Below are positions 49,477 through 59,865 of a DNA stretch of 64,000 nucleotides, piece after piece. The DNA is from Flavivirga aquimarina (GTDB taxonomy: Bacteria > Bacteroidota > Bacteroidia > Flavobacteriales > Flavobacteriaceae): positions 434,001-498,000 of the forward strand of contig NZ_JAUOEK010000184.1 in the NCBI RefSeq assembly GCF_030540835.1, read 5' to 3'. The notes under the pieces were generated by a model. It had not been told where the DNA came from. It saw nothing but the letters and a program-made list of their open reading frames with translations, and ran no database searches. The position numbers were made by a program, and so were the translations under genes. Position 1 is the stretch's first letter. Each line of letters begins with the position of its first letter.

Positions 49477-50211
49477 TTATTCTAATTTATTAATAAGGTT
49501 TTGCGCTTCCTTATAATCTTCTGCATATTTTGGTATGGTTTTTAATATTTCTAAACAAGCAGCAAAGTCTTTCTGTTTTAATTTACTTAAAGCCGAATAC
49601 CAAATTGCTTTGCTTTTATAAACCGACTGGGTATTAGAAAGTCTGCTGAATAAACTATCGGCTTCATCAAATTTATCTATTTCTAATAGCGCAATACCTC
49701 GGTATAATTGCAATTCTTTATTCGAATTATCTTTGGCTAATAACTGTCCAAAAATGATTTCCGCAGTAATGAAATTTTTATTATTAAAAGCGTCTTCGGC
49801 TGCTTTTAGCAATTCGTCTTGTCCACCTCTTACAGTTAAACTAATTGCCTCGTAATTATTGTAATCGCTAAAAGTTGGGTTAGGAGAATCATTAAATGTA
49901 AAGATTCCTATTAATAAAGCAATACTTGCTGCTACAGCATATTTCCAGAGCTTAAAGTGTCCTACTTTTTTAGCAGGTTTTTGTTTTTCAAAATGAGTTT
50001 TAGAAATGGTTTTTAAATTATTCTGAAAAGCGGTTGAAGCTGCTTCGTTTTCAAATTTATGTTCTAAAAAAGACGCTAACTCTTTATATGTATTAAATGC
50101 CTGGTTAAAATCCGATTCATTTTTTAATCTCGATTCAAAAGCAATTATTTCATCTTGAGGTAACTCTTTAGATAAATAGGATTCGAATAATATGTAATTT
50201 TGATCTTCCAT
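49477..50211 (-). CDS. Membrane-anchored TPR protein, probable anti-sigma factor
   Basis: A 244-residue protein with a cytoplasmic N-terminal helical part (1-90; YLSKELPQDEIIAFESRLKNE), one membrane helix (about 91-107, YAVAASIALLIGIFTF) and a TPR-like C-terminal domain (130-244). Such N-terminal helices resemble the anti-sigma domains that Bacteroidota pair with ECF sigma factors, with TPR parts outside the membrane to sense the envelope. The gene starts five bases after the sigma-factor gene ends, which supports the pairing. No catalytic motif is visible. Direct proof of sigma binding is missing. Confidence 0.72.
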   Translation of the reverse strand: MEDQNYILFESYLSKELPQDEIIAFESRLKNESDFNQAFNTYKELASFLEHKFENEAASTAFQNNLKTISKTHFEKQKPAKKVGHFKLWKYAVAASIALLIGIFTFNDSPNPTFSDYNNYEAISLTVRGGQDELLKAAEDAFNNKNFITAEIIFGQLLAKDNSNKELQLYRGIALLEIDKFDEADSLFSRLSNTQSVYKSKAIWYSALSKLKQKDFAACLEILKTIPKYAEDYKEAQNLINKLE

Positions 50212-50216
50212 GACAA

Positions 50217-50798
50217 TTAATTATTAAGTTGGTTAAATTTTGGTGACTTTTGAACCAGCTCTGTCAATTTACCAATACATAAAGATTTCTTTTTTCTGGC
50301 ATACGCATAAGTTACTCCTAAACTTTTAGCGACTTCTTCCATAGATTTTATTTTAAAAGTAGCTGTTAATAAATCTTTACAAGCGGTTCCAAGTTTTTGA
50401 AACATTTCTGTAAATAAAACTTGTTTTTCGCCAAATACAGCTGTTTCAAAAGCTAGTTCTTGAGCCTCGTCATCTTTAGATAAAACTTCTTCATTAATTG
50501 TTACCTCTTTATTAGAGTTTTTTTTCAATTCATTTAGCCATTTTCGTTTACATAGGATAAAAAAATACGCATCAAATGGGCAGGTAAGCTGTAATTTATT
50601 TTCGCTTGCCTGATTATAAATGGTAATTAAGGTATCCTGTATCACATCTTGAGCCTTATCACCATCGCCACTATTTTGCTTTATATAGTTAATTACTTTA
50701 GGAACAAACTTATCATATATAGCTTGTATAATAAACGAATTGTTTTTAAGCAGTCCATCTATGTACTTCTGGTCCTCGTGTAGTTTTTTCTCACTCAT
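50217..50798 (-). CDS. Sigma-70-family RNA polymerase sigma factor (ECF-like)
   Basis: A 193-residue sigma factor. Region 2 lies at about 20-80 (QAIYDKFVPKVINYIKQNSGDGDKAQDVIQDTLITIYNQA) and region 4 at about 130-185 (KLGTACKDLLTATFKIKSMEEVAKSLGVTYAYARKKKSLC). The usual second regulatory element is the membrane TPR protein encoded just downstream. It is transcribed away from the accessory genes at 51.1-59.9 kb. Three of those transcription units carry the same GGGTAACA-17-ATATAA-type upstream sequence, so it may drive them. Confidence 0.85.
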   Translation of the reverse strand: MSEKKLHEDQKYIDGLLKNNSFIIQAIYDKFVPKVINYIKQNSGDGDKAQDVIQDTLITIYNQASENKLQLTCPFDAYFFILCKRKWLNELKKNSNKEVTINEEVLSKDDEAQELAFETAVFGEKQVLFTEMFQKLGTACKDLLTATFKIKSMEEVAKSLGVTYAYARKKKSLCIGKLTELVQKSPKFNQLNN

Positions 50799-51043: not shown

Positions 51044-51074
51044 GGGTAACAATTTTTAAATGGATTTGATATAA
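51044..51074 (+). promoter_or_regulatory. Shared-type promoter, unit 1
   Basis: GGGTAACA (51044-51051), 17 bases, ATATAA (51069-51074), 55 bases before the ATG at 51130. The same arrangement occurs at 51593-51623 and 53973-54003. It does not match the usual TAnnTTTG type. Confidence 0.6.
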
Positions 51075-51129
51075 GGGTGTTACAGTAAAAAACTGAAACA
51101 TTTTAATTAATCCATAAAAATTAGAAATC

Positions 51130-51573
51130 ATGAAGAAATCAATTTTAATTATCGGTACTGTAGTATTATCAATTTTAAATGCTCATGCTACAACCTTAAC
51201 ATCGGCCCTTAACCCAATAACTATTAGTGTAGATATTACAAATGAGCACTTACTTAAAGTATATGATTGGAAAGTAGAAACCAATATAGGTGTTTATTCG
51301 GGAATAGCGCTTTCTGTTGAAGATGCAAAACGAATGATTCTTTTAACAAGCTCTGGAGAAATTATAAGAGCATCTATCATTGAAGGCTATTTTGTATTAA
51401 AAACGGAAGCAAAAAACAACTCTAAAAGAAATTATTTCTGGGAAGTTGAAACTGTAACAGGATATGCAAAAGGGTACTCTTCAACAGAAGCATACGCTTA
51501 TAAAATGATGCAATTAGTTGCTTCTGGCGATGCTATTGTTTCCAAAAAAATAATCAGTCAACCTCAACAATAA
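51130..51573 (+). CDS. Secreted protein with an internal repeat
   Basis: A 147-residue exported protein of no family known to me. A signal peptide (KKSILIIGTVVLSILNAHA) precedes two related units of about 40 residues. These are YDWKVETNIGVYSGIALSVEDAKRM with LLTSSGEIIRAS (about 45-85) and YFWEVETVTGYAKGYSSTEAYAYKM with QLVASGDAIVS (about 99-140). Both share the W-x-VET, G, S-x-E-A-M and SG landmarks. A small periplasmic or surface protein is likely. It is the first gene downstream of the sigma-factor control region and has the shared promoter type. Confidence 0.7.
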   Translation: MKKSILIIGTVVLSILNAHATTLTSALNPITISVDITNEHLLKVYDWKVETNIGVYSGIALSVEDAKRMILLTSSGEIIRASIIEGYFVLKTEAKNNSKRNYFWEVETVTGYAKGYSSTEAYAYKMMQLVASGDAIVSKKIISQPQQ

Positions 51574-51588
51574 AAAAATAATTACCAA

Positions 51589-51618
51589 AACAGGGTAACA
51601 AAATAATTACCCTGTTTA
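51589..51618 (+). terminator. Terminator after the internal-repeat protein, overlapping the next promoter
   Basis: AACAGGGTAA-(8)-TTACCCTGTT, a perfect 10-bp stem followed by TATATAA. The left arm contains the GGGTAACA element of the next unit. Confidence 0.65.
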
Positions 51619-51623
51619 TATAA
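51593..51623 (+). promoter_or_regulatory. Shared-type promoter, unit 2
   Basis: GGGTAACA (51593-51600), 17 bases, ATATAA (51618-51623), 31 bases before the lipoprotein ATG. Both elements are identical to those of unit 1 with the same spacing. Confidence 0.6.
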
Positions 51624-51654
51624 CCTCGAATAATAATTTAAAACCCAATTAATC

Positions 51655-52632
51655 ATGAAAATTACAAAACACATTTTAGGAACCATTTTTATCTCAGCTT
51701 TATTATTAACCAGCTGTTCTAATAATGACGATCACGATGGCGATATTTTAATTCGTCCAACAGCTGAAGATTTTAATCAGTTAAAAGAAGCTGCCCTTGA
51801 AAACTTAACGCAAACATTTCAGTTTAATACGGATGACGGCTATGTAACACTAACATCTGATAAGGGTGTACAAATTAGCATTAGTAGTTCTTGTTTAACT
51901 TTAAATGGAGACGCTGTAACTGGAACTATCGATGTAGAGTTTGTTGAACTTTTTGACAAAGGTAGCATGCTTACAACAAATAAGCCAACCATGGGAACTT
52001 TACCAAATGGCGATAAAGCATTGCTTATTTCTGGAGGAGAATTCTTTGTGAATGCGACTCAAAATGGTGCTGCTCTAGAAACCAATTGTGGATTTCAAAT
52101 GTTAATTCCTGGAGATTTAACAGGAGGTGTAGATAATGATATGACACTTTGGGAAGGTAGAATCGATCAAGACGGAAACCTTGCATGGGCTGAAGTTGAT
52201 GAAGCTGCTGGACAAGATGGTGGTGTATTTGGAGAGGGAGACCAATACTATGGTTTTTTTCAATCATTCGGATGGTCTAACGTAGATCGTTTTTATAACG
52301 ACCCACGTGAAAAAACAACTATTCTTGTAGCAGTGCCTGAGGGGTATGATAATACAAACAGTTCTGTTTTTATTTCTTATGATGGCGAAGATGCAGGCTT
52401 AGCTAATTTAGATACTTACGATGCTGAAACTGGTTTATTTAGCGAGCATTACGGACAAATTCCTATTGGATTGGAGTGCCATATCATTTTTGCTACTGAA
52501 GATGGTGACAACTGGAAATATGCTATTAAAGCTGTAACTATTGCAGAAAATGATGTTATAACATTTACCGAAGATGAAACTTCAATAGCTACTGAAGCAC
52601 AATTAACAACTATTATTAATGGTTTACCATAA
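51655..52632 (+). CDS. Surface-type lipoprotein of unknown function
   Basis: A 325-residue lipoprotein. A signal peptide ends in the lipobox LLTSC at residues 17-21, and the mature start CSNNDDHDGD is acidic, like the flavobacterial surface-export signal (S followed by several Asp/Glu). The mature protein is acidic and rich in Gly, Asp and Thr, with beta-type stretches such as VQISISSSCLTLNGDAVTGTIDVEFVELF and SSVFISYDGEDAGLANLD. No named domain is recognised with certainty. It has its own promoter-type element and a strong terminator, so it is a single-gene unit. Confidence 0.75.
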   Translation: MKITKHILGTIFISALLLTSCSNNDDHDGDILIRPTAEDFNQLKEAALENLTQTFQFNTDDGYVTLTSDKGVQISISSSCLTLNGDAVTGTIDVEFVELFDKGSMLTTNKPTMGTLPNGDKALLISGGEFFVNATQNGAALETNCGFQMLIPGDLTGGVDNDMTLWEGRIDQDGNLAWAEVDEAAGQDGGVFGEGDQYYGFFQSFGWSNVDRFYNDPREKTTILVAVPEGYDNTNSSVFISYDGEDAGLANLDTYDAETGLFSEHYGQIPIGLECHIIFATEDGDNWKYAIKAVTIAENDVITFTEDETSIATEAQLTTIINGLP

Positions 52633-52696
52633 ACATCTACTCATTTTAAATTCCTGCTTATAACGGTTAACTTCATTTGTTAACCTTCCTTTTCAA

Positions 52697-52726
52697 ACCA
52701 GAAACTTTATGTTTCTGGTTTTTTAT
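52697..52726 (+). terminator. Terminator after the lipoprotein gene
   Basis: AACCAGAAAC-TTTAT-GTTTCTGGTT, perfect 10-bp stem, then TTTTT, about 65 bases after the stop. Confidence 0.85.
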
Positions 52727-52846
52727 TAAAGTCAATAATAAATAAGACAGTATAATTATATCTCTTTAAGTTTACAAATTGTTAACTTTTCTCACGATTA
52801 ATTTCGGTATATTTAGACATTCTTGATAACATTAAAAAAATTTAAA

Positions 52847-53581
52847 ATGGATAATCCTTTTCAAATACAGCCTGAACTTCGTTATGGCGCGCCTGTTTGC
52901 GATGAAATTTTAGTTGGACGCTACTTCTCTATTGGTTACTCTTGGTATTTTAGACAAGCCAAATGGACATTAGAAATCATAAATAGAAATCAATACCTTC
53001 TAACAGAAGCAGATAGAATGAACAACTTTCGAGCTGACACACGAATTCCTAAACGATTTCGAGCAGGACTTGGAGCTTATTCAGGTAGTGGGTTTGATCG
53101 GGGGCACCTAGTTGCAAGTGCCAATAACGATATTCTTGAAATTCAGAATAGTGAAACTTTTTTGTTATCAAATATGTCTCCGCAAAAACCTAATTTCAAT
53201 CGTATCATTTGGCGAAAACTTGAAGAAGCGGTAAGAAAGCTTAACGATAAGCCAGAAGTTTTAGAAACTTATGTTCTTACTGCCCCTGTATTTTACTTCG
53301 ATAGAAAAGTTGAAACTATTGGTGATGATTCAGATGAATATGGTATTGATGTTCCTGTGCCACATGCATTCATCAAAAGTATTTTAGCCGAGGACGATAA
53401 AGGCAGGTTGTCTCTTTGGACTTTCGAAATGGAAAATAAAAAGCTAACAGGCGAACTAAAAGATTATCTTGTTTCAACATATGATGCCGAACAGTTGGTT
53501 GGAGGTCGTTTTTGGGATCGAATTAGTGGAGGCGATCTTCATCTGCAAAAGAAGCATCCAAGAGATATTTGGGAGTTTTAA
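52847..53581 (+). CDS. DNA/RNA non-specific endonuclease (NUC1 family), no signal peptide
   Basis: A 244-residue nuclease from the chosen ATG at 52847; an in-frame TTG at 52823 would only add a lysine-rich stretch. The NUC1 beta-beta-alpha-metal core is intact: FDRGHLVAS with catalytic His87, then LLSNMSPQKPNFNRIIWRKLEE with the metal-binding Asn118. The later parts VLTAPVF and VPHAFIKSIL also match. Family members usually carry a signal peptide or act in mitochondria; here none is seen, so the enzyme would stay in the cytoplasm. No immunity gene is visible beside it. Confidence 0.85.
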   Translation: MDNPFQIQPELRYGAPVCDEILVGRYFSIGYSWYFRQAKWTLEIINRNQYLLTEADRMNNFRADTRIPKRFRAGLGAYSGSGFDRGHLVASANNDILEIQNSETFLLSNMSPQKPNFNRIIWRKLEEAVRKLNDKPEVLETYVLTAPVFYFDRKVETIGDDSDEYGIDVPVPHAFIKSILAEDDKGRLSLWTFEMENKKLTGELKDYLVSTYDAEQLVGGRFWDRISGGDLHLQKKHPRDIWEF

Positions 53582-53587
53582 AAATCT

Positions 53588-53749
53588 TCATTGTTTTTTA
53601 ACAGGAAACACTACTTGGTAGCTTTTTATTCCTTTACTTTCATTTATAGGACACCAAGTCCCATTTGATGCTCCGAAGGTTGCGGCTTGGTTTTTATTAT
53701 GTAACATAAGGTTTAAAGAAGCCCTTCCTATTAATCTAAGTGCTCTCAT
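53588..53749 (-). CDS. Uncertain 53-residue ORF
   Basis: A leftward ORF from ATG (53749) to TGA (53588) in the 614-base spacer before the CHAT operon. It contains TFGASNGTWCPINESKGIKS and ends YQVVFPVKKQ. No family is recognised. Its start is weak and it could be the end of a decayed gene. It ends seven bases from the nuclease stop. Confidence 0.3.
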   Translation of the reverse strand: MRALRLIGRASLNLMLHNKNQAATFGASNGTWCPINESKGIKSYQVVFPVKKQ

Positions 53750-53972
53750 TTGCTTTCGTATGTTTAACCATAATTATCGGTTAAATATGCTTTAATTCTG
53801 GGCATCTAAAGGTCACAGAAAAAAATTCGTTAATCTGACCTAAAGCAAAGTCTAAGCATATTTGCCATTATATATTGTTAGCGCGACTTTGAATTAAAAC
53901 TTATACTTTTTAGGGCTTTATAATTGAGCCTAGCGTTCCAATTGGAAAATTCTCATTTTCATAGCATAAAAT
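53750..53972. other. Intergenic stretch before the CHAT operon
   Basis: No gene or clear structure is seen. It lies between the uncertain ORF and the shared-type promoter at 53973. Confidence 0.4.
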
Positions 53973-54003
53973 GGGTAACAAAATGTAATTATTGTGTATT
54001 TAA
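53973..54003 (+). promoter_or_regulatory. Shared-type promoter, unit 3 (CHAT operon)
   Basis: GGGTAACA (53973-53980), 17 bases, ATTTAA (53998-54003), one base different from ATATAA of units 1 and 2 at the same spacing. It is 20 bases before the 33-residue membrane-peptide ORF. Confidence 0.55.
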
Positions 54004-54023: not shown

Positions 54024-54125
54024 GTGAAAAAAACAATTCCAATATGGGCTATCATAGTGATGATATTGTTAGTAATAACAGCCAATATTTTTGTAATTAT
54101 ATCTAACTTTTATATTTCATATTAA
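54024..54125 (+). CDS. 33-residue membrane peptide, first ORF of the CHAT operon
   Basis: A GTG-started ORF (54024-54125). It reads MKKTIPIW, then one hydrophobic helix (AIIVMILLVITANIFVII) and SNFYISY-stop. Length and charge pattern fit a single-pass inner-membrane peptide with N-terminus inside. It lies 20 bases after the shared-type promoter and 70 before the PKD protein start, so it would be the first cistron. A second 33-residue single-helix ORF lies at 60200-60301. No homology is known to me. Confidence 0.55.
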   Translation: MKKTIPIWAIIVMILLVITANIFVIISNFYISY

Positions 54126-54195
54126 GTTAGTACTGCACAAGGCTCTTATAAAGATGACACTTTTTGTATATTTAAACCAATTTAACCAACTGTTC

Positions 54196-56151
54196 ATGAA
54201 CAAATTATTCCTTTTTATTTGCTTACTATTTATACATGTATATAGCTACTCACAACAATTAGTTGCAAACGATACACTAACAAGAACAGCAACTATTAAG
54301 AGTACTACTAATGGCAACGAAATAATATTTACCCCAGAAACACCTACTTTAAACCAAATTGCTGGTGCACCAAAAGCATTTTATACGCATTACTGGGAAT
54401 TTGGTGACGGGCATTATAGCACCGAAGAAAAACCAAAACATGTTTATAAAAATAAAGGAGATTATGAAGTAAAACTTTGGGCCACCAATAATTACGACAC
54501 AGGTAAACCACCAACAACAAGACCCAAAAAGATTGCTGTTAATTCAATTACAACAGACTATGAAGATCTGGCAGTTATGGATGAAGATTTTACATTAAAG
54601 CGTAACCGTGAACCTGTTCCCGAACAAGAAATAGTAACGGTATTGAGTTATAAAAATGTAAAAGACTACGTAACCAACGGAAAAATATACCTGTTTTATA
54701 ACGAGCTTAAATATAAAGCCAATAATTTTGAATTGTTAGAAACCAGGACACATCATAACGAAAAAAATATTTCGGCAAACGGTTTTGCATATACAAATAA
54801 TCTAGATGAAGACCACACTTATCTGGCTTCTTTAAATCATGATATTATTAAATCGAATCCTGTATTACAAGATTCGACAGAAAAGACAAACCTTCCTTTA
54901 ACCATTGCAGAATCTCAAGCATATTATAAAGACTGGAGCCTACTGGAATTTGATAATATGCAACCCAATGAAGAGCGTCATATCTTTTTTAGTTTAAAAA
55001 CTACACCAGAAATGGTTAAGGATACCAGTGCCATTATATCGGTTAGAGGTATTTATGTACCAGATGGTAACTATGATAACCATAAAGTAAAAGACATGGA
55101 AATGGAAATTGTGACCTCACATGATCCTAACAAAATGTCATCCAATGGTACGTTTATGAATTATAGATTAGTACGTTTTAAAACCTTAAAATATAAGATC
55201 AAATTTCAAAATAACGGCGAAGGTCCGGCAAGAACAATAAGACTAGAAACCGATATTCCCGACATGTTGGATAAATCGACTTTAAAGGTTCTAGATATGT
55301 ATCCTAAATGTGACATATGCCCTAAACGAGAAGTTCTCTATAGCTGCTTAGACACTACATTTACAGATAGTCAAGCCATTTTTACCTTTAAAAATATTTA
55401 TCTACCGGGAAGCGAACAAAAAAATGTAAAAGAATACGATTCTACAAAAGGTTTTGTAAAATATAGCATCAAGTTTGCAAAAGATTTTCATAAGAAAAAA
55501 ACCAAAAGTAGAACTGCCATTATTTTTGATAAAAACGAGCCTATTCTTACCAACTATTCAACCACTAGGTTTATACCCGGGTTATCCATTGGTGCCAAAA
55601 TGGGGTATAATTCGTTTAGCGACTTAAAAAACTCCAAAAGTTACTTCTTAGGTTTTACACTGTCTCCTTATAAATCTTATAGATGGTATTGGCAAGTAGA
55701 ACTCATGAATAATTTACATAACTACGATGCTGAAACTAATGTTGTTGAAGAATTTATTCAAGAAGCTCAAGGGTTTCGTTTTTTACAGCGCACCACAACG
55801 GATGCTTCTTACGAAAATATTGATTGGGATATTCCCGTTTTAATACGATATAATATTAATAATTATTTTGGTCTGGGCGCAGGTTTGCAAAACACCATTT
55901 CCTTAAGTGAAAAACAAGAACAACGTATTTTAATAGAATGGTTTGAAGGAGACACCCCAGACACGCCCTCTTTTAATATTGAAGAAGATACTGGTAGCGA
56001 AACCAATTCTTTTACCAATTTAAGAACAGGGTTATTATTTGAGGCCACTGCTGGTTTTGCCAGAATTGGCCCTAGTGTAGGTGCTCGTTATATAATGAAT
56101 TTTGAAAACGATTTTAACTACTGGCAATTTTACGCTATATGGAAATTCTGA
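54196..56151 (+). CDS. PKD-domain outer-membrane protein
   Basis: A 652-residue exported protein from the start I choose (54196, MNKLFLFICLLFIHVYSYSQ); an ATG 42 bases upstream in frame would bury the signal peptide. A PKD domain (about 50-115) has the hallmark YWEFGDGHYSTEEKPKHVY. The middle contains beta-rich repeats with a four-cysteine patch, KCDICPKREVLYSC. The last 170 residues look like an outer-membrane beta-barrel (GLSIGAKMGYNS, YFLGFTLSPYKSYRWYW, ending NYWQFYAIWKF). It is 30 bases upstream of the CHAT gene and likely presents an extracellular domain. Confidence 0.7.
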   Translation: MNKLFLFICLLFIHVYSYSQQLVANDTLTRTATIKSTTNGNEIIFTPETPTLNQIAGAPKAFYTHYWEFGDGHYSTEEKPKHVYKNKGDYEVKLWATNNYDTGKPPTTRPKKIAVNSITTDYEDLAVMDEDFTLKRNREPVPEQEIVTVLSYKNVKDYVTNGKIYLFYNELKYKANNFELLETRTHHNEKNISANGFAYTNNLDEDHTYLASLNHDIIKSNPVLQDSTEKTNLPLTIAESQAYYKDWSLLEFDNMQPNEERHIFFSLKTTPEMVKDTSAIISVRGIYVPDGNYDNHKVKDMEMEIVTSHDPNKMSSNGTFMNYRLVRFKTLKYKIKFQNNGEGPARTIRLETDIPDMLDKSTLKVLDMYPKCDICPKREVLYSCLDTTFTDSQAIFTFKNIYLPGSEQKNVKEYDSTKGFVKYSIKFAKDFHKKKTKSRTAIIFDKNEPILTNYSTTRFIPGLSIGAKMGYNSFSDLKNSKSYFLGFTLSPYKSYRWYWQVELMNNLHNYDAETNVVEEFIQEAQGFRFLQRTTTDASYENIDWDIPVLIRYNINNYFGLGAGLQNTISLSEKQEQRILIEWFEGDTPDTPSFNIEEDTGSETNSFTNLRTGLLFEATAGFARIGPSVGARYIMNFENDFNYWQFYAIWKF

Positions 56152-56181: not shown

Positions 56182-58764
56182 ATGAAAAAACTAAGTCTTA
56201 TTTTCTTTTTAATTTACGGAATTACTTTTTCTCAAAATTTAGAAGAAGAAATTTATGTTGCTGCCGAAACATTTATTAGCAACACAAATAATACTTCATT
56301 AAACCTCTTAAGCGAGCAAGAATCTACATTCAAAAAACAAGTTAAAAGCAAAAGTGAACAACTAGCGCTTGTTTTTTTACAATGTCACAAAGGGTTTTAT
56401 CTGGAGAAAATCTTCCAGCTAAAAGATGCGATTACTACTTTTGAGGATGCTTCAAATCGGTTTAAAACAAACAACCTTTCAAAATTTTCCCATTTCGATA
56501 TAATTGAAAGCTGTCTAATCCCTTTAGGAAACTTATATACTAAAACTGATGATTTTACTAATGCCGAAAACATCATCAAACAATACATATTTTTAGCAGA
56601 AAAAAGTAATCATATTAAACACCGGACTAGTGGTATTATTAATCTGGCTAAACTATATCAAAGTGCAGGCAAGCATAAATCTGTGCTAGAATTAACGTCA
56701 AAAAATCTTAATACTCTAAACATAAATAATGTTCAAAAACAAAAATTAATTGATATAAACGATGATAGTCAAATCGCCTTAAATAGCTCATTATCAAAAA
56801 CAATCGACAACAACACTTTTGAGTATTACAAAAACAACTACCAAATAGCACTGCGAAAAAGAAATTATGAAAAAGCTCTGTTCCATTTCAATAAAGCAAA
56901 AAAAGTATTTTTATATCAAAAAGAGGTTTTCGCTAGAGATTTAGCTAAACTATATTTTCAAGAAGCACAACTATATTATTTATTAAACGATTCAAAAACA
57001 GCTTTAGATAGCTTACAAAAGGCTACTAAAGCCTTACTTCCTAATCATACTTTCGCCTCTTTACCTCTAAGAAGTGAACTATACGCCGAAAATACATTTA
57101 TAGATATTTTCGATTTGTATGCTACGCTTCAGGAAGACTATAAATTAGCACTTAAATATTACGATTTAAGTTTCTATATATCTCGATTATTACAAAATAA
57201 CTGGACATCTCAGGAAAACAAAATATCGAATCAGGCAGCAAATAGAATTCGTAGTGAAAAATGTATAGATATTATCTTTAATGCCTACCAAAGCATTAAA
57301 AATGACACACTTTTATCCGCCGCTTTTAAATACGCAGAATTAAACAAATCGGGAATCTTAAAAGAGAGAGCTTTTAAACAAACGCTTTTACAAAAATACC
57401 CCAATGATAGTTTGTTACTTAAAGAATCTCATTTACTTAAAAAACAGGAAGAAATAACCAACCTCTTAATAAATGAACAATTAGGTAAATCGAAAGCATC
57501 CATAATTTCAGCCTTAAGCTCAGATTTAAATGCTGTAAGCATAAAATTAAAAACGCTCACAGAAGCTATAAATAAAAAATACCCCGAGTTAGAAAATACT
57601 AATTTTTTAGTTAAAGATTTACAAAACAAGCTATTAAAAGACGACGCTGTTTTGGTTGAGTATTTTTATGGCAAAAAAAACATCTATCAATTTATAATTT
57701 ATAATGATAGTATCAACCTTAACAAAATTAATTTAGATGAAGCTGTCAAAACACATATTACAAATTTTATTCATTTATTCGATAACGCTTCTATAATAAA
57801 TAACGATATAAATAAATTTACAAAAACGGCTTATACTCTTTATGGTATCTTGAACCTTGCAAAAGCATCAAATTTTAAAAACATCGTTATTATCCCAGAT
57901 GGGTTATTAAGTTTTATACCATTTGAGGCTTTACTAACTTCTAAAACCCATACAACCAACTTTTCAAAAATGCCATTTGTTATACAAAAGCAACATATTG
58001 TTTACAATACAAGTCCCGCATTTTACCTAAAAAACGAAGCAGAAAATAACACAAACAAGCTTCTTGGTATCTTTCCGGTATTTGAAAAAACAAAAAACAG
58101 TTTAACCTACTCTATAGATGAGGCAAATGCTATAAAAGAAGAAATACCATCCCAGCTATTTTTAAAAGATAAAGCAACAAAAAAAGCTTTCATTGAAAAT
58201 AGTTTAAACTACAGTATATTACATTTATCTACCCATGCCAGTAGTGGCGATTTTTTAACCTCAGCTAATATTGAGTTTTATAACGATACCATGTATCTAA
58301 ATGAATTATATAGCCTCAATTTAAACACAAATCTTGTCGTCTTAAGTGCTTGTGAAACGGGTGTTGGGAAATTATATAAAGGAGAAGGCGCTATGAGCAT
58401 AGCTCGTGGGTTTCAATACGCTGGTGCCCAAAACGTATTGTTTTCTCTATGGCAAATAAACGATTTATCTACATCTCAAATTATGAAATCCTTTTATAAA
58501 AACTATGGAGATAACCAGTCGGCTTATACCTCGAATCATCAGTCAAAATTAGATTATTTAAAAAATGAAGGAATTAGCAATATTAAAAAATCACCTTATT
58601 ACTGGAGTGCTTTTGTATATTATGGTCAAATAACAAAACCAACGAATCGCGATAATAAATTAATTTACACACTCTTAGGGTTATTTATCTTATTGATTAT
58701 AGTACTTTTACTGTTGAGAATGAAAAAATCTTATGGAAAAAACACTGCAGGAATTCTTAATTAA
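56182..58764 (+). CDS. TPR-CHAT protease-like protein with C-terminal membrane helix
   Basis: An 860-residue protein of the CHAT (caspase-like) group. A signal peptide-like start (LSLIFFLIYGITFSQ) is followed by TPR-type helical repeats (about 40-430), then the CHAT domain (about 510-810). The catalytic pair is intact: LHLSTHASSG with His685 and VVLSACETGVG with Cys724, in the family pattern GEGAMSIARGFQYAGAQNVLFSLWQ. A membrane helix near the end (TLLGLFILLIIVLLLL, about 830-846) leaves a short basic cytoplasmic tail. CHAT and TPR would thus face the periplasm. It overlaps the protease gene downstream by 32 bases. Target proteins are unknown. Confidence 0.88.
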   Translation: MKKLSLIFFLIYGITFSQNLEEEIYVAAETFISNTNNTSLNLLSEQESTFKKQVKSKSEQLALVFLQCHKGFYLEKIFQLKDAITTFEDASNRFKTNNLSKFSHFDIIESCLIPLGNLYTKTDDFTNAENIIKQYIFLAEKSNHIKHRTSGIINLAKLYQSAGKHKSVLELTSKNLNTLNINNVQKQKLIDINDDSQIALNSSLSKTIDNNTFEYYKNNYQIALRKRNYEKALFHFNKAKKVFLYQKEVFARDLAKLYFQEAQLYYLLNDSKTALDSLQKATKALLPNHTFASLPLRSELYAENTFIDIFDLYATLQEDYKLALKYYDLSFYISRLLQNNWTSQENKISNQAANRIRSEKCIDIIFNAYQSIKNDTLLSAAFKYAELNKSGILKERAFKQTLLQKYPNDSLLLKESHLLKKQEEITNLLINEQLGKSKASIISALSSDLNAVSIKLKTLTEAINKKYPELENTNFLVKDLQNKLLKDDAVLVEYFYGKKNIYQFIIYNDSINLNKINLDEAVKTHITNFIHLFDNASIINNDINKFTKTAYTLYGILNLAKASNFKNIVIIPDGLLSFIPFEALLTSKTHTTNFSKMPFVIQKQHIVYNTSPAFYLKNEAENNTNKLLGIFPVFEKTKNSLTYSIDEANAIKEEIPSQLFLKDKATKKAFIENSLNYSILHLSTHASSGDFLTSANIEFYNDTMYLNELYSLNLNTNLVVLSACETGVGKLYKGEGAMSIARGFQYAGAQNVLFSLWQINDLSTSQIMKSFYKNYGDNQSAYTSNHQSKLDYLKNEGISNIKKSPYYWSAFVYYGQITKPTNRDNKLIYTLLGLFILLIIVLLLLRMKKSYGKNTAGILN

Positions 58765-59176
58765 AAAAGGATATGCTAAAGTAAAGCTACATCTTACTAA
58801 AACAAATCACTTTGAAATAAAGGCAACTATAAATGGACATAAAGGCTTATTTATTCTAGATACTGGTGCATCAAGCTCATGTGTAGGTTTTGAAGCTACT
58901 GAAACTTTTAAGCTAAAAACTGAAAACTCTACTATTAAAGCAGCAGGTGCAGGTGCTACAAATATGGACACTAAGATGTCTAAAAAAAACAAAATGAAAA
59001 TCGGAAAATGGAAACGCAATAAGGTTGTTTTAGTTTTATTTAATCTTACTCATGTAAATACGGCTCTAATAAATCATAATTCTAAACCTGTTGACGGAAT
59101 TATAGGAGCCGATATATTAAAAAAAGCTAAAGCTATTATTGATTATGAAAAGAAATATCTATATTTAAAACTATAA
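58733..59176 (+). CDS. Retropepsin-like aspartic protease
   Basis: A 147-residue single-domain protein. The catalytic loop is LFILDTGASSS with Asp43, followed by a flap region and the second hydrophobic signature DGIIGADIL, as in retroviral-type pepsins that work as dimers. There is no signal peptide, so it would be cytoplasmic, on the side of the CHAT protein's tail. Its first 32 bases overlap the CHAT gene in another frame, which makes translational coupling likely. It is basic in the middle (MSKKNKMKIGKWKRNK). Substrates are unknown. Confidence 0.85.
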   Translation: MEKTLQEFLIKKGYAKVKLHLTKTNHFEIKATINGHKGLFILDTGASSSCVGFEATETFKLKTENSTIKAAGAGATNMDTKMSKKNKMKIGKWKRNKVVLVLFNLTHVNTALINHNSKPVDGIIGADILKKAKAIIDYEKKYLYLKL

Positions 59177-59232: not shown

Positions 59233-59865
59233 ATGAACACCTCAATAGTGATTGCTGATGATCATCCGTTAATGTTACGGGGGCTAACCGATTTTTTAAC
59301 TTCGAAAGGTTTTAATATTGTAGGAAGTGCCCAAGATGGAAATACAGCCTATAATCTTATAGTAAAACTAAAACCAAAAATCGCCATTCTAGATATAAGA
59401 ATGCCCTATAAAACTGGATTAGAAATCGCCGAAGCTTGCAAAAAAAATAATTTAAATACTAAAGTTATCCTTATAACTTTCGATAAAGAGGAAGAGTTAT
59501 ACGACAAGGCTAAAGAATTTGATGTTTTTGGATATATTTTAAAAGAATTTGCCATTGAAGAAATTGAAACTTGTATTGAACATGTTATAAATGGCACACC
59601 GTATTTTAGTGAAGAAATAGCATCTTATTTAAACACAAGTAATTTAGAGCAAAGACCTGATGTATTAGATTTATTAACCAAGTCTGAACTAAAAATAGTA
59701 AAGCTTATTTCTGAAAATAAAACAAGTCATGATATCGCCAATGATTTATCAATTTCTGTTCGTACAGTAGATAAGCATAGAAGTAATATTGTTGCGAAAT
59801 TAGGCTTAGATAACAAACCTACATCGCTTTCAATTTGGGCCAACTTAAATAAAGCTCATTTTTAA
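59233..59865 (+). CDS. LuxR/NarL-family response regulator
   Basis: A 210-residue regulator. The receiver domain (1-120) has the acidic pair Asp9-Asp10, the phosphorylation site Asp54 in AILDIRMP, Thr82 and Lys104, so it can be phosphorylated. The helix-turn-helix domain (about 145-205) contains LTKSELKIVKLISENKTSHDIANDLSISVRTVDKHRSNIVAKLGL. No histidine kinase is encoded in the window, so its partner is elsewhere. It is 56 bases after the retropepsin gene, likely in the same transcript, and is followed by a terminator. Confidence 0.9.
   Translation: MNTSIVIADDHPLMLRGLTDFLTSKGFNIVGSAQDGNTAYNLIVKLKPKIAILDIRMPYKTGLEIAEACKKNNLNTKVILITFDKEEELYDKAKEFDVFGYILKEFAIEEIETCIEHVINGTPYFSEEIASYLNTSNLEQRPDVLDLLTKSELKIVKLISENKTSHDIANDLSISVRTVDKHRSNIVAKLGLDNKPTSLSIWANLNKAHF

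Follow-up and report, generated by a model that had tools for sequence, protein, structure and literature searches.

Which sigma factor reads a group of closely similar promoter-like sites that stand beside a sigma factor gene, and what does it control? The question is raised by a stretch of 64,000 nucleotides from Flavivirga aquimarina (contig NZ_JAUOEK010000184.1, positions 434,001 to 498,000; hereafter the window). A first-pass annotation of this DNA had described three sites of two elements each with identical 17-base spacing, at 51044-51074 (P1), 51593-51623 (P2) and 53973-54003 (P3), and had tentatively proposed a dedicated regulon run by the adjacent sigma-70-family factor. All three sites are present on the + strand as described, and the genes around them had been called correctly: a sigma-70-family gene, a membrane protein gene, the gene of a secreted protein of 147 amino acids (aa) downstream of P1, a lipoprotein gene downstream of P2 and an operon with a CHAT protease gene downstream of P3. 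The proposal of a dedicated regulon gained support from the conservation of the locus, from the co-occurrence of motif and sigma gene, and from a further copy of the motif, constrained at the DNA level, within the sigma gene itself.

We propose that the motif is the promoter of the extracytoplasmic function (ECF)-type sigma factor encoded at 50217-50798, that this factor would control a small regulon, and that an intragenic promoter would lead into the adjacent anti-sigma-like gene, giving negative feedback. We assign this interpretation a probability of roughly 0.87. The motif, its spacing and conservation, its co-occurrence with the sigma gene and the codon constraint are established by sequence comparison.

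Results

The core of the motif is RGGTAACA, followed after 17 bases by ATATAA, ATTTAA or ATCTAA. Within the window, GGGTAACA occurs three times on the + strand and not once on the - strand. A genome-wide scan, as suggested with the first-pass annotation, returned three matches to GGGTAACA-N17-ATWTAA in 5.29 Mb (5,291,796 bases scanned), all of them at the reported sites; the reversed pattern, which served as the control, gave one match to the exact two-part form in the whole genome. When up to two mismatches were allowed, the genome was not enriched (161 matches vs 191 in the control), and the regulon is therefore a small one with no broad degenerate set. A degenerate regulon spread over the genome had been considered and was rejected on this count. 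We also built a site model from 53 of 65 non-redundant sites, leaving out five intragenic sigma sites, six distal sites and one unassigned site (L170:6804). Although it had been built without any intragenic or distal site, the model ranked P2 (38.4 bits), P1 (36.0 bits), P3 (28.5 bits) and the site inside the sigma gene as the top four in the genome, in that order.

Every one of the 11 same-genus genomes searched has an ortholog of the sigma gene, and among 60 relatives a match at E <= 1e-10 was obtained for 20. In each of the 11 congeners, RGGTAACA precedes the 147-aa gene, the lipoprotein gene and the gene for a PKD-domain protein that opens the CHAT operon. The site travels with its gene: the PKD-CHAT operon lies approximately 21 kb from the sigma gene in G003, approximately 14 kb away in G010 and on a separate contig in G009, and in every case the site is kept and the CHAT gene follows in the displaced copy. 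Where the lipoprotein gene is duplicated (G004 and G031), each copy has its own site.

A wider set was assembled from the best 80 of 351 relatives of the sigma protein obtained in a scan of a genome collection. The pattern GGGTAACA-N16-18-ATWTA matched 150 times in these 80 loci, compared with a single match of the reversed control; 149 of the 150 matches have a spacer of 17 bases, and all are divergent from the sigma gene. The strict motif stands beside the sigma gene in 75 of the 80 loci. Loss of the motif from the other five (L148, L153, L154, L156 and L186) was ruled out by the small variants present there, four of them carrying AGGTAACA and one having variants of the -10 element. Counting a motif within 330 bases of a gene as its strict site, we found one before the 147-aa gene in 51 of the 61 loci having that gene (59 under relaxed conditions) and one before the lipoprotein homolog in 66 of 76 (68 relaxed). 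Measured from the first block of the motif, the start codon most often lies at a distance of 58-63 or 85-98 bases. A total of 167 sites were recorded in the 80 loci, and a simple pattern test placed 76 of them before lipobox-like starts and 79 before other signal-like starts; six had no gene that we could find, and six preceded a start that was neither lipobox- nor signal-like. The usual gene order, which is incomplete in some loci, is tatD, the anti-sigma-like gene and the sigma gene, followed divergently by the genes for the 147-aa protein, the lipoprotein, the PKD protein, the CHAT protein, an aspartyl protease and a response regulator.

Co-occurrence was evaluated in 120 genomes of the family, our own and one congener included, with a match at E <= 1e-40 defining a sigma-positive genome. 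The pattern RGGTAACA-N16-KATATAA was found in 15 of 16 sigma-positive and in 5 of 104 sigma-negative genomes (Fisher p = 5e-14). The five are at background level, because the reversed pattern matches 18 of the 120 genomes and 15 of those are sigma-negative. In G091, the only sigma-positive genome without a match, the promoter is present but differs at one base of its -10.

The sigma factor itself (50217-50798, - strand) is a protein of 193 aa that scored 29.5 bits with the Pfam model Sigma70_r2 (cut-off 24) and 47.9 bits with the sigma70-ECF model TIGR02937 (cut-off 42.9) over residues 26-180; the Pfam sigma4 models gave no match at E 0.01. Its size and the two scores above cut-off place it among the ECF factors, as does a -35/-10 class of its own, GGTAACA-N17-ATATAA, whose spacing is fixed in related loci. 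Members of ECF group IV are typically some 200 aa long, have only the sigma2 and sigma4 domains, and use promoters in which a -35 with AAC is separated by approximately 16-17 bases from the -10.

The main addition to the first-pass annotation, which had missed both this site and the distal one described below, is a predicted promoter inside the sigma gene. The sequence AGGTAACA-N17-ATCTAA spans codons 98-108 (50476-50506, - strand; 19.8 bits), runs in sense with the sigma gene and points at the membrane protein gene at 49477-50211. Across 81 orthologs, the residue at codon 98 varies (Glu 75, Gly 3, Gln 2, Lys 1), yet its third base is always G; codon 99 is GTA and codon 100 is ACA in 81 of 81 sequences. 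For comparison, gene-wide codon use, with codons 98-100 included, is 27% for GAG, 33% for GTA and 32% for ACA. Synonymous variation is zero only at codons 98, 99, 100 and 107 among 189 columns tested. On the gene tree, the median codon underwent 17 third-position changes, and Met and Trp aside, only codons 98, 99, 100, 106 and 107 underwent none. These invariant codons are the -35 and the -10 of the intragenic site, and the codons between the two elements (101-105) have 7-29 changes each. Ser107 (TCT) is replaced in orthologs by Tyr (TAT) or Phe (TTT), and the -10 stays AT-rich. As third positions are invariant solely at the codons of the two elements, the comparison predicts a sigma-driven feedback promoter for the anti-sigma-like gene.

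Further homologs extended this pattern. RGGTAACA occupies the same intragenic place in seven of seven additional sigma homologs with 54-81% identity (L063, L064 and L228-L232), where the -10 reads ATCTAA, ATATAA, ATCTAT or ATCTGA; it is absent from that place in a sigma factor of 31% identity (L065). Applied to the window, the 80 loci and three others, the site model gave 242 matches at E <= 0.1. Every match on the sigma gene's own strand fell within the sigma gene, and an intragenic match was obtained in 47 of the 80 loci as well as in the window and in L063.

The protein encoded downstream of this predicted promoter (49477-50211, - strand) is a probable membrane anti-sigma factor, with four N-terminal helices, one transmembrane (TM) helix and a C-terminal TPR domain. 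TPR_19 scored 29.3 bits, and the AlphaFold2 model placed helices at residues 3-13, 19-31, 33-52 and 56-74 and the TM helix at 89-106, followed by the TPR region, with a mean predicted local distance difference test (pLDDT) score of 82. The modeled helix-TM-TPR layout fits a membrane anti-sigma factor. The gene adjoins the sigma gene in 78 of the 80 loci, and from its position, this layout and the feedback promoter we infer an anti-sigma role. According to PMC7406223, only 6% of Bacteroidetes ECFs are tied to class I anti-sigmas.

Sites were also found beyond the locus. In 10 of the 11 same-genus genomes (G008 being the exception), the motif lies 51-60 bases upstream of the start of a lipoprotein of 190-194 aa, for which an ATG within a longer frame was taken as the start in L103. 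The counterpart in our genome is a one-mismatch site at C34:40403-40433. Among the 11 one-mismatch sites of the genome, this one and a copy on C104 (C104:62527-62557, L010) are the only two that overlap no frame of at least 80 aa. The latter lies approximately 100 bases or more before another lipoprotein gene; we noticed no match before such a gene in relatives, where no separate search was made. Further sites precede genes of exported proteins in a few relatives (L106, L110, L113, L233, L235 and L236), and matches within long reading frames in L117, L118 and L119 were treated as coding. Elsewhere, in L234 (G107), a copy of the motif lies 230 bases before the gene of a 379-aa protein with repeats, which we take to resemble those of curlin.

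The 31%-identical sigma factor (L065, from G036) provided a view beyond the present clade. A TPR protein gene and a CHAT gene lie nearby; the -35 GGGTAACA is kept, the -10 is GACATWA, and this combination occurs at four sites in the G036 genome as opposed to none for the control. One of the four begins 33 bases before the start codon of its own sigma gene. CHAT matches were found near three of seven distant sigma homologs (G036, G029 and G023). Taken together, the G036 case and these CHAT neighbors make the -35 element and a link to the sigma operon look old, and the intragenic position particular to the present clade, as judged from one outgroup sequence. G036 may thus illustrate a joint divergence of sigma factors and their -10 elements.

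With regard to the genes downstream of the three sites, the 147-aa protein (51130-51573, + strand) has a hydrophobic N-terminus, and neither it nor the 325-aa lipoprotein gave a Pfam or NCBIfam match at E 0.01. The extra DNA between the sigma gene and P1 (50799-51043) includes the inverted repeat TCCCGACAGCTGTCGGGA and may be a small inserted element. Approximately 15 bases past the 147-aa gene lies a terminator-like hairpin (51588-51617, + strand; -13.6 kcal/mol) whose arms contain the -35 of P2 and whose T-rich tail contains the -10, the -35 plus spacer of P2 forming an inverted repeat. At 67 pre-lipoprotein sites, the median folding energy was -13.4 kcal/mol vs -2.3 kcal/mol with shuffled spacers, and -4 kcal/mol or lower was reached by 78% of the sites vs 23% of the shuffles; none of 58 sites before the 147-aa gene folded to that level. 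Judging from these foldings, the terminator of the preceding gene probably incorporates P2. The lipoprotein (51655-52632, + strand) has the lipobox TSCSNNDD, with C21 invariant in 48 aligned sequences. Its AlphaFold2 model is beta-rich (pLDDT 85.5), and a fold search with it yielded no usable relative, the leading matches having query TM-scores of approximately 0.2.

A gene for a DNA/RNA non-specific endonuclease (52823-53581, + strand; 122 bits) stands between the lipoprotein gene and P3. No match to it was found in a smaller set of 20 loci or in the 80 wider loci, and it may be a recent insertion. P3 is followed, all on the + strand, by a 33-aa single-span membrane peptide with a GTG start (54024-54125); of 15 other loci examined, 9 have a similar peptide of 29-33 aa downstream of a copy of the motif. 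After it come a protein with PKD, DUF7619 and DUF7849 domain matches (54154-56151) that is probably anchored in the outer membrane, a TPR-CHAT protease (56182-58764; CHAT 149.4 bits), an aspartyl protease (58733-59176; Asp_protease_2, 50.7 bits) and a NarL/LuxR-type response regulator recognized by its domain matches (59233-59865). The TPR-CHAT protein has a C-terminal TM helix, the hydrophobic stretch beginning at approximately residue 824. The motifs of its catalytic dyad are kept as HxSTHA in 66 and as SAC[EDQN][TS] in 70 of 72 orthologs; the four exceptions shown are three sequences with HLSTHG or HISTHG and one short frame.

Discussion

The circuit that we propose would work as follows. 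The protein encoded at 49477-50211 would hold the sigma factor through its cytoplasmic N-terminal helices, and its periplasmic TPR domain would sense an envelope signal. Once released, the sigma factor would switch on envelope genes: that of the secreted protein behind P1, that of the lipoprotein behind P2, the P3 unit (membrane peptide, PKD/DUF7849 protein, TPR-CHAT protease, aspartyl protease and response regulator) and one distal lipoprotein gene. It would also act at the intragenic promoter, which would yield more inhibitor without more full-length sigma factor and thus close a negative feedback loop. Recognition of the motif by this sigma factor, the part played by the anti-sigma-like protein, the feedback and the signal are what we infer from the comparisons above.

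A different view of the motif would make it the operator of a DNA-binding regulator, for instance the LuxR-type response regulator at 59233-59865, which lies in the same block here and has a regulator match in 61 of the 80 loci. This is very unlikely in our judgment, as the sites have the anatomy of promoters, with two blocks, a fixed spacing of 17 bases, an AT-rich second block and typical distances to the start codon. In L150, L171, L173, L174, L179, L180 and L063, moreover, the block reaches sucB with no regulator match and the motif is present (regulators elsewhere in those genomes were not searched for), and across the genomes of the family the presence of the motif tracks the sigma gene. 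That tracking leaves room for another thought, namely that another alternative sigma factor of the genome uses the promoters and that the neighboring sigma gene is merely one of its targets, through the intragenic site; motif and sigma gene are physically linked, so that their co-occurrence is no proof of recognition. We consider this equally improbable. Upstream of its own gene, the G036 factor (31% identity) combines this -35 with a different -10 (four sites in that genome vs none in the control), and the motif is not in excess among sigma-negative genomes, 5 of 104 of which carry it whereas 15 of 104 match the reversed control.

The fixed codons within the sigma gene could in principle reflect a constraint on the protein, on codon use or on RNA structure instead of a promoter, and Val99 and Thr100 are indeed invariant as residues in the 81 orthologs. 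We regard this as improbable, if somewhat less so than the two preceding alternatives. Synonymous codons are fixed only where the -35 and -10 match, at the same spacing, with variation at the codons in between; codon 98 retains its third base through changes of residue; and the Tyr and Phe codons that replace that of Ser107 preserve the AT-rich -10.

Several observations weigh against the sigma-promoter interpretation or parts of it. The distance between P1 and the sigma gene, most often 45-47 bases in relatives, is 246 bases in this genome. At P3, the -10 reads ATCTAT in one congener (G004) and ATATCA in two others (G005 and G011), and a strict site near the PKD gene was found in 17 of 75 wider loci (23 relaxed). 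Set beside the strict counts for the other two genes, this indicates that P1 and P2 are the stable core and that P3 belongs to the genus and some relatives; where P3 is missing, transcription of the operon may start at the preceding lipoprotein promoter, or the operon may lie outside the regulon. The distal site scores 16.0 bits in this genome, which cannot be separated from noise, so that its case comes from the 10 of 11 relatives. The intragenic -10 departs to ATCTAT or ATCTGA in some distant homologs, and 33 of the 80 loci gave no intragenic model match at E <= 0.1. As for the membrane protein, the antisigma model NF052375 matched weakly (17.8 bits vs a cut-off of 100), and the 50 fold-search matches listed are TPR or TPR-like, so that an anti-sigma fold is not proven. 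Lastly, G122, an 82% complete genome with no sigma match at E <= 1e-40, carries a full GGGTAACA-N17-ATATAA at C85:22779-22809 that looks genuine although the genome counts as sigma-negative; the assembly may lack its sigma gene, or the gene may have diverged further.

The presence of a TPR-CHAT protease in the proposed regulon may hint at control of the putative anti-sigma factor by proteolysis, as in the CRISPR-linked CASP system. By analogy, a periplasmic, membrane-anchored TPR-CHAT protease under control of the sigma factor might, without any CRISPR component, cleave the periplasmic TPR part of the anti-sigma protein and thereby set off the response, which would amount to positive feedback, with the intragenic promoter remaking the anti-sigma factor as the negative arm. 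We regard this as a speculative extension with about one chance in four of being right. Two hints favor it, the CHAT genes near three of seven distant sigma homologs and the dyad motifs kept in most orthologs; against it, the CHAT operon has a strict motif of its own in only 17 of the 75 wider loci.

If the sigma-promoter interpretation is correct, many marine Flavobacteriaceae (Flavivirga, Winogradskyella, Olleya, Lacinutrix, Bizionia and others) gain a well-defined alternative promoter class, unlike the ECF motif of Flavobacterium psychrophilum, together with a small regulon that is ready for testing. The promoter hidden in the sigma gene would be a clear case of a regulatory element freezing synonymous codons, and a feedback loop could be predicted from the DNA alone. 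The circuit would bring together a TPR-CHAT protease, a membrane anti-sigma-like protein and an ECF sigma factor, which raises the question of whether caspase-like proteases control sigma factors outside CRISPR.

A known arrangement of this kind is RpoE-RseA-DegS of Escherichia coli, in which a membrane anti-sigma factor is released by proteolysis to activate an envelope regulon. The system proposed here would resemble it in general layout, with a membrane anti-sigma factor, an envelope regulon and, more speculatively, proteolytic release; the sensor domain and the proteases differ. In searches of the open-licence literature we recognized, among the papers listed, none describing the motif, the regulon or the intragenic site. 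PMC13236525 was dismissed as a source of the motif, since the letters GTAACA in it belong to a primer. From F. psychrophilum, another member of the Flavobacteriaceae, comes the ECF-type promoter motif SM6, derived there from mapped 5' ends and with an ECF sigma/anti-sigma pair among its targets (PMC9723704). A CGT box marks the -10 of SM6, and its targets include several genes of type IX secretion (PMC9723704), whereas the -10 here is ATATAA, ATTTAA or ATCTAA and the targets are lipoprotein genes and the CHAT operon.

In the type III-E CRISPR system CASP, which consists of Csx29 (TPR-CHAT), Csx30 and CASP-sigma, the protease targets a protein that inhibits an ECF-like sigma factor (PMC10028731). 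Shared features are a TPR-CHAT protease, a protein inhibiting the ECF-like sigma factor (presumed here) and a motif of the sigma factor's own within the locus, and the protein encoded at 56182-58764 has the TPR-CHAT architecture with a His-Cys dyad (CHAT 149.4 bits). The CASP protease works with Cas7-11 and is RNA-activated (PMC10028731). Unlike it, the CHAT protein here starts with a signal-like N-terminus and ends with a TM helix, and the presumed inhibitor is a TPR protein of the membrane. Pfam and NCBIfam scans, confined to nine proteins, gave no Cas or Csx match.

An intragenic anti-sigma promoter as such is already known from sigH-rshA. In Corynebacterium glutamicum, the SigH-dependent promoter PrshA lies inside the sigH coding region and produces a separate anti-sigma transcript (PMC3489674). 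SigH is an actinobacterial factor with a GGAA-type -35, and the excerpted text of that report does not mention a TPR anti-sigma factor, a CHAT protease or lipoproteins in connection with SigH-RshA. The PrshA promoter is known from transcripts. The feature that the two systems would have in common is a sigma-dependent promoter within the sigma gene ahead of the anti-sigma gene, predicted here from the sequence and from the constraint on its codons in 81 orthologs.

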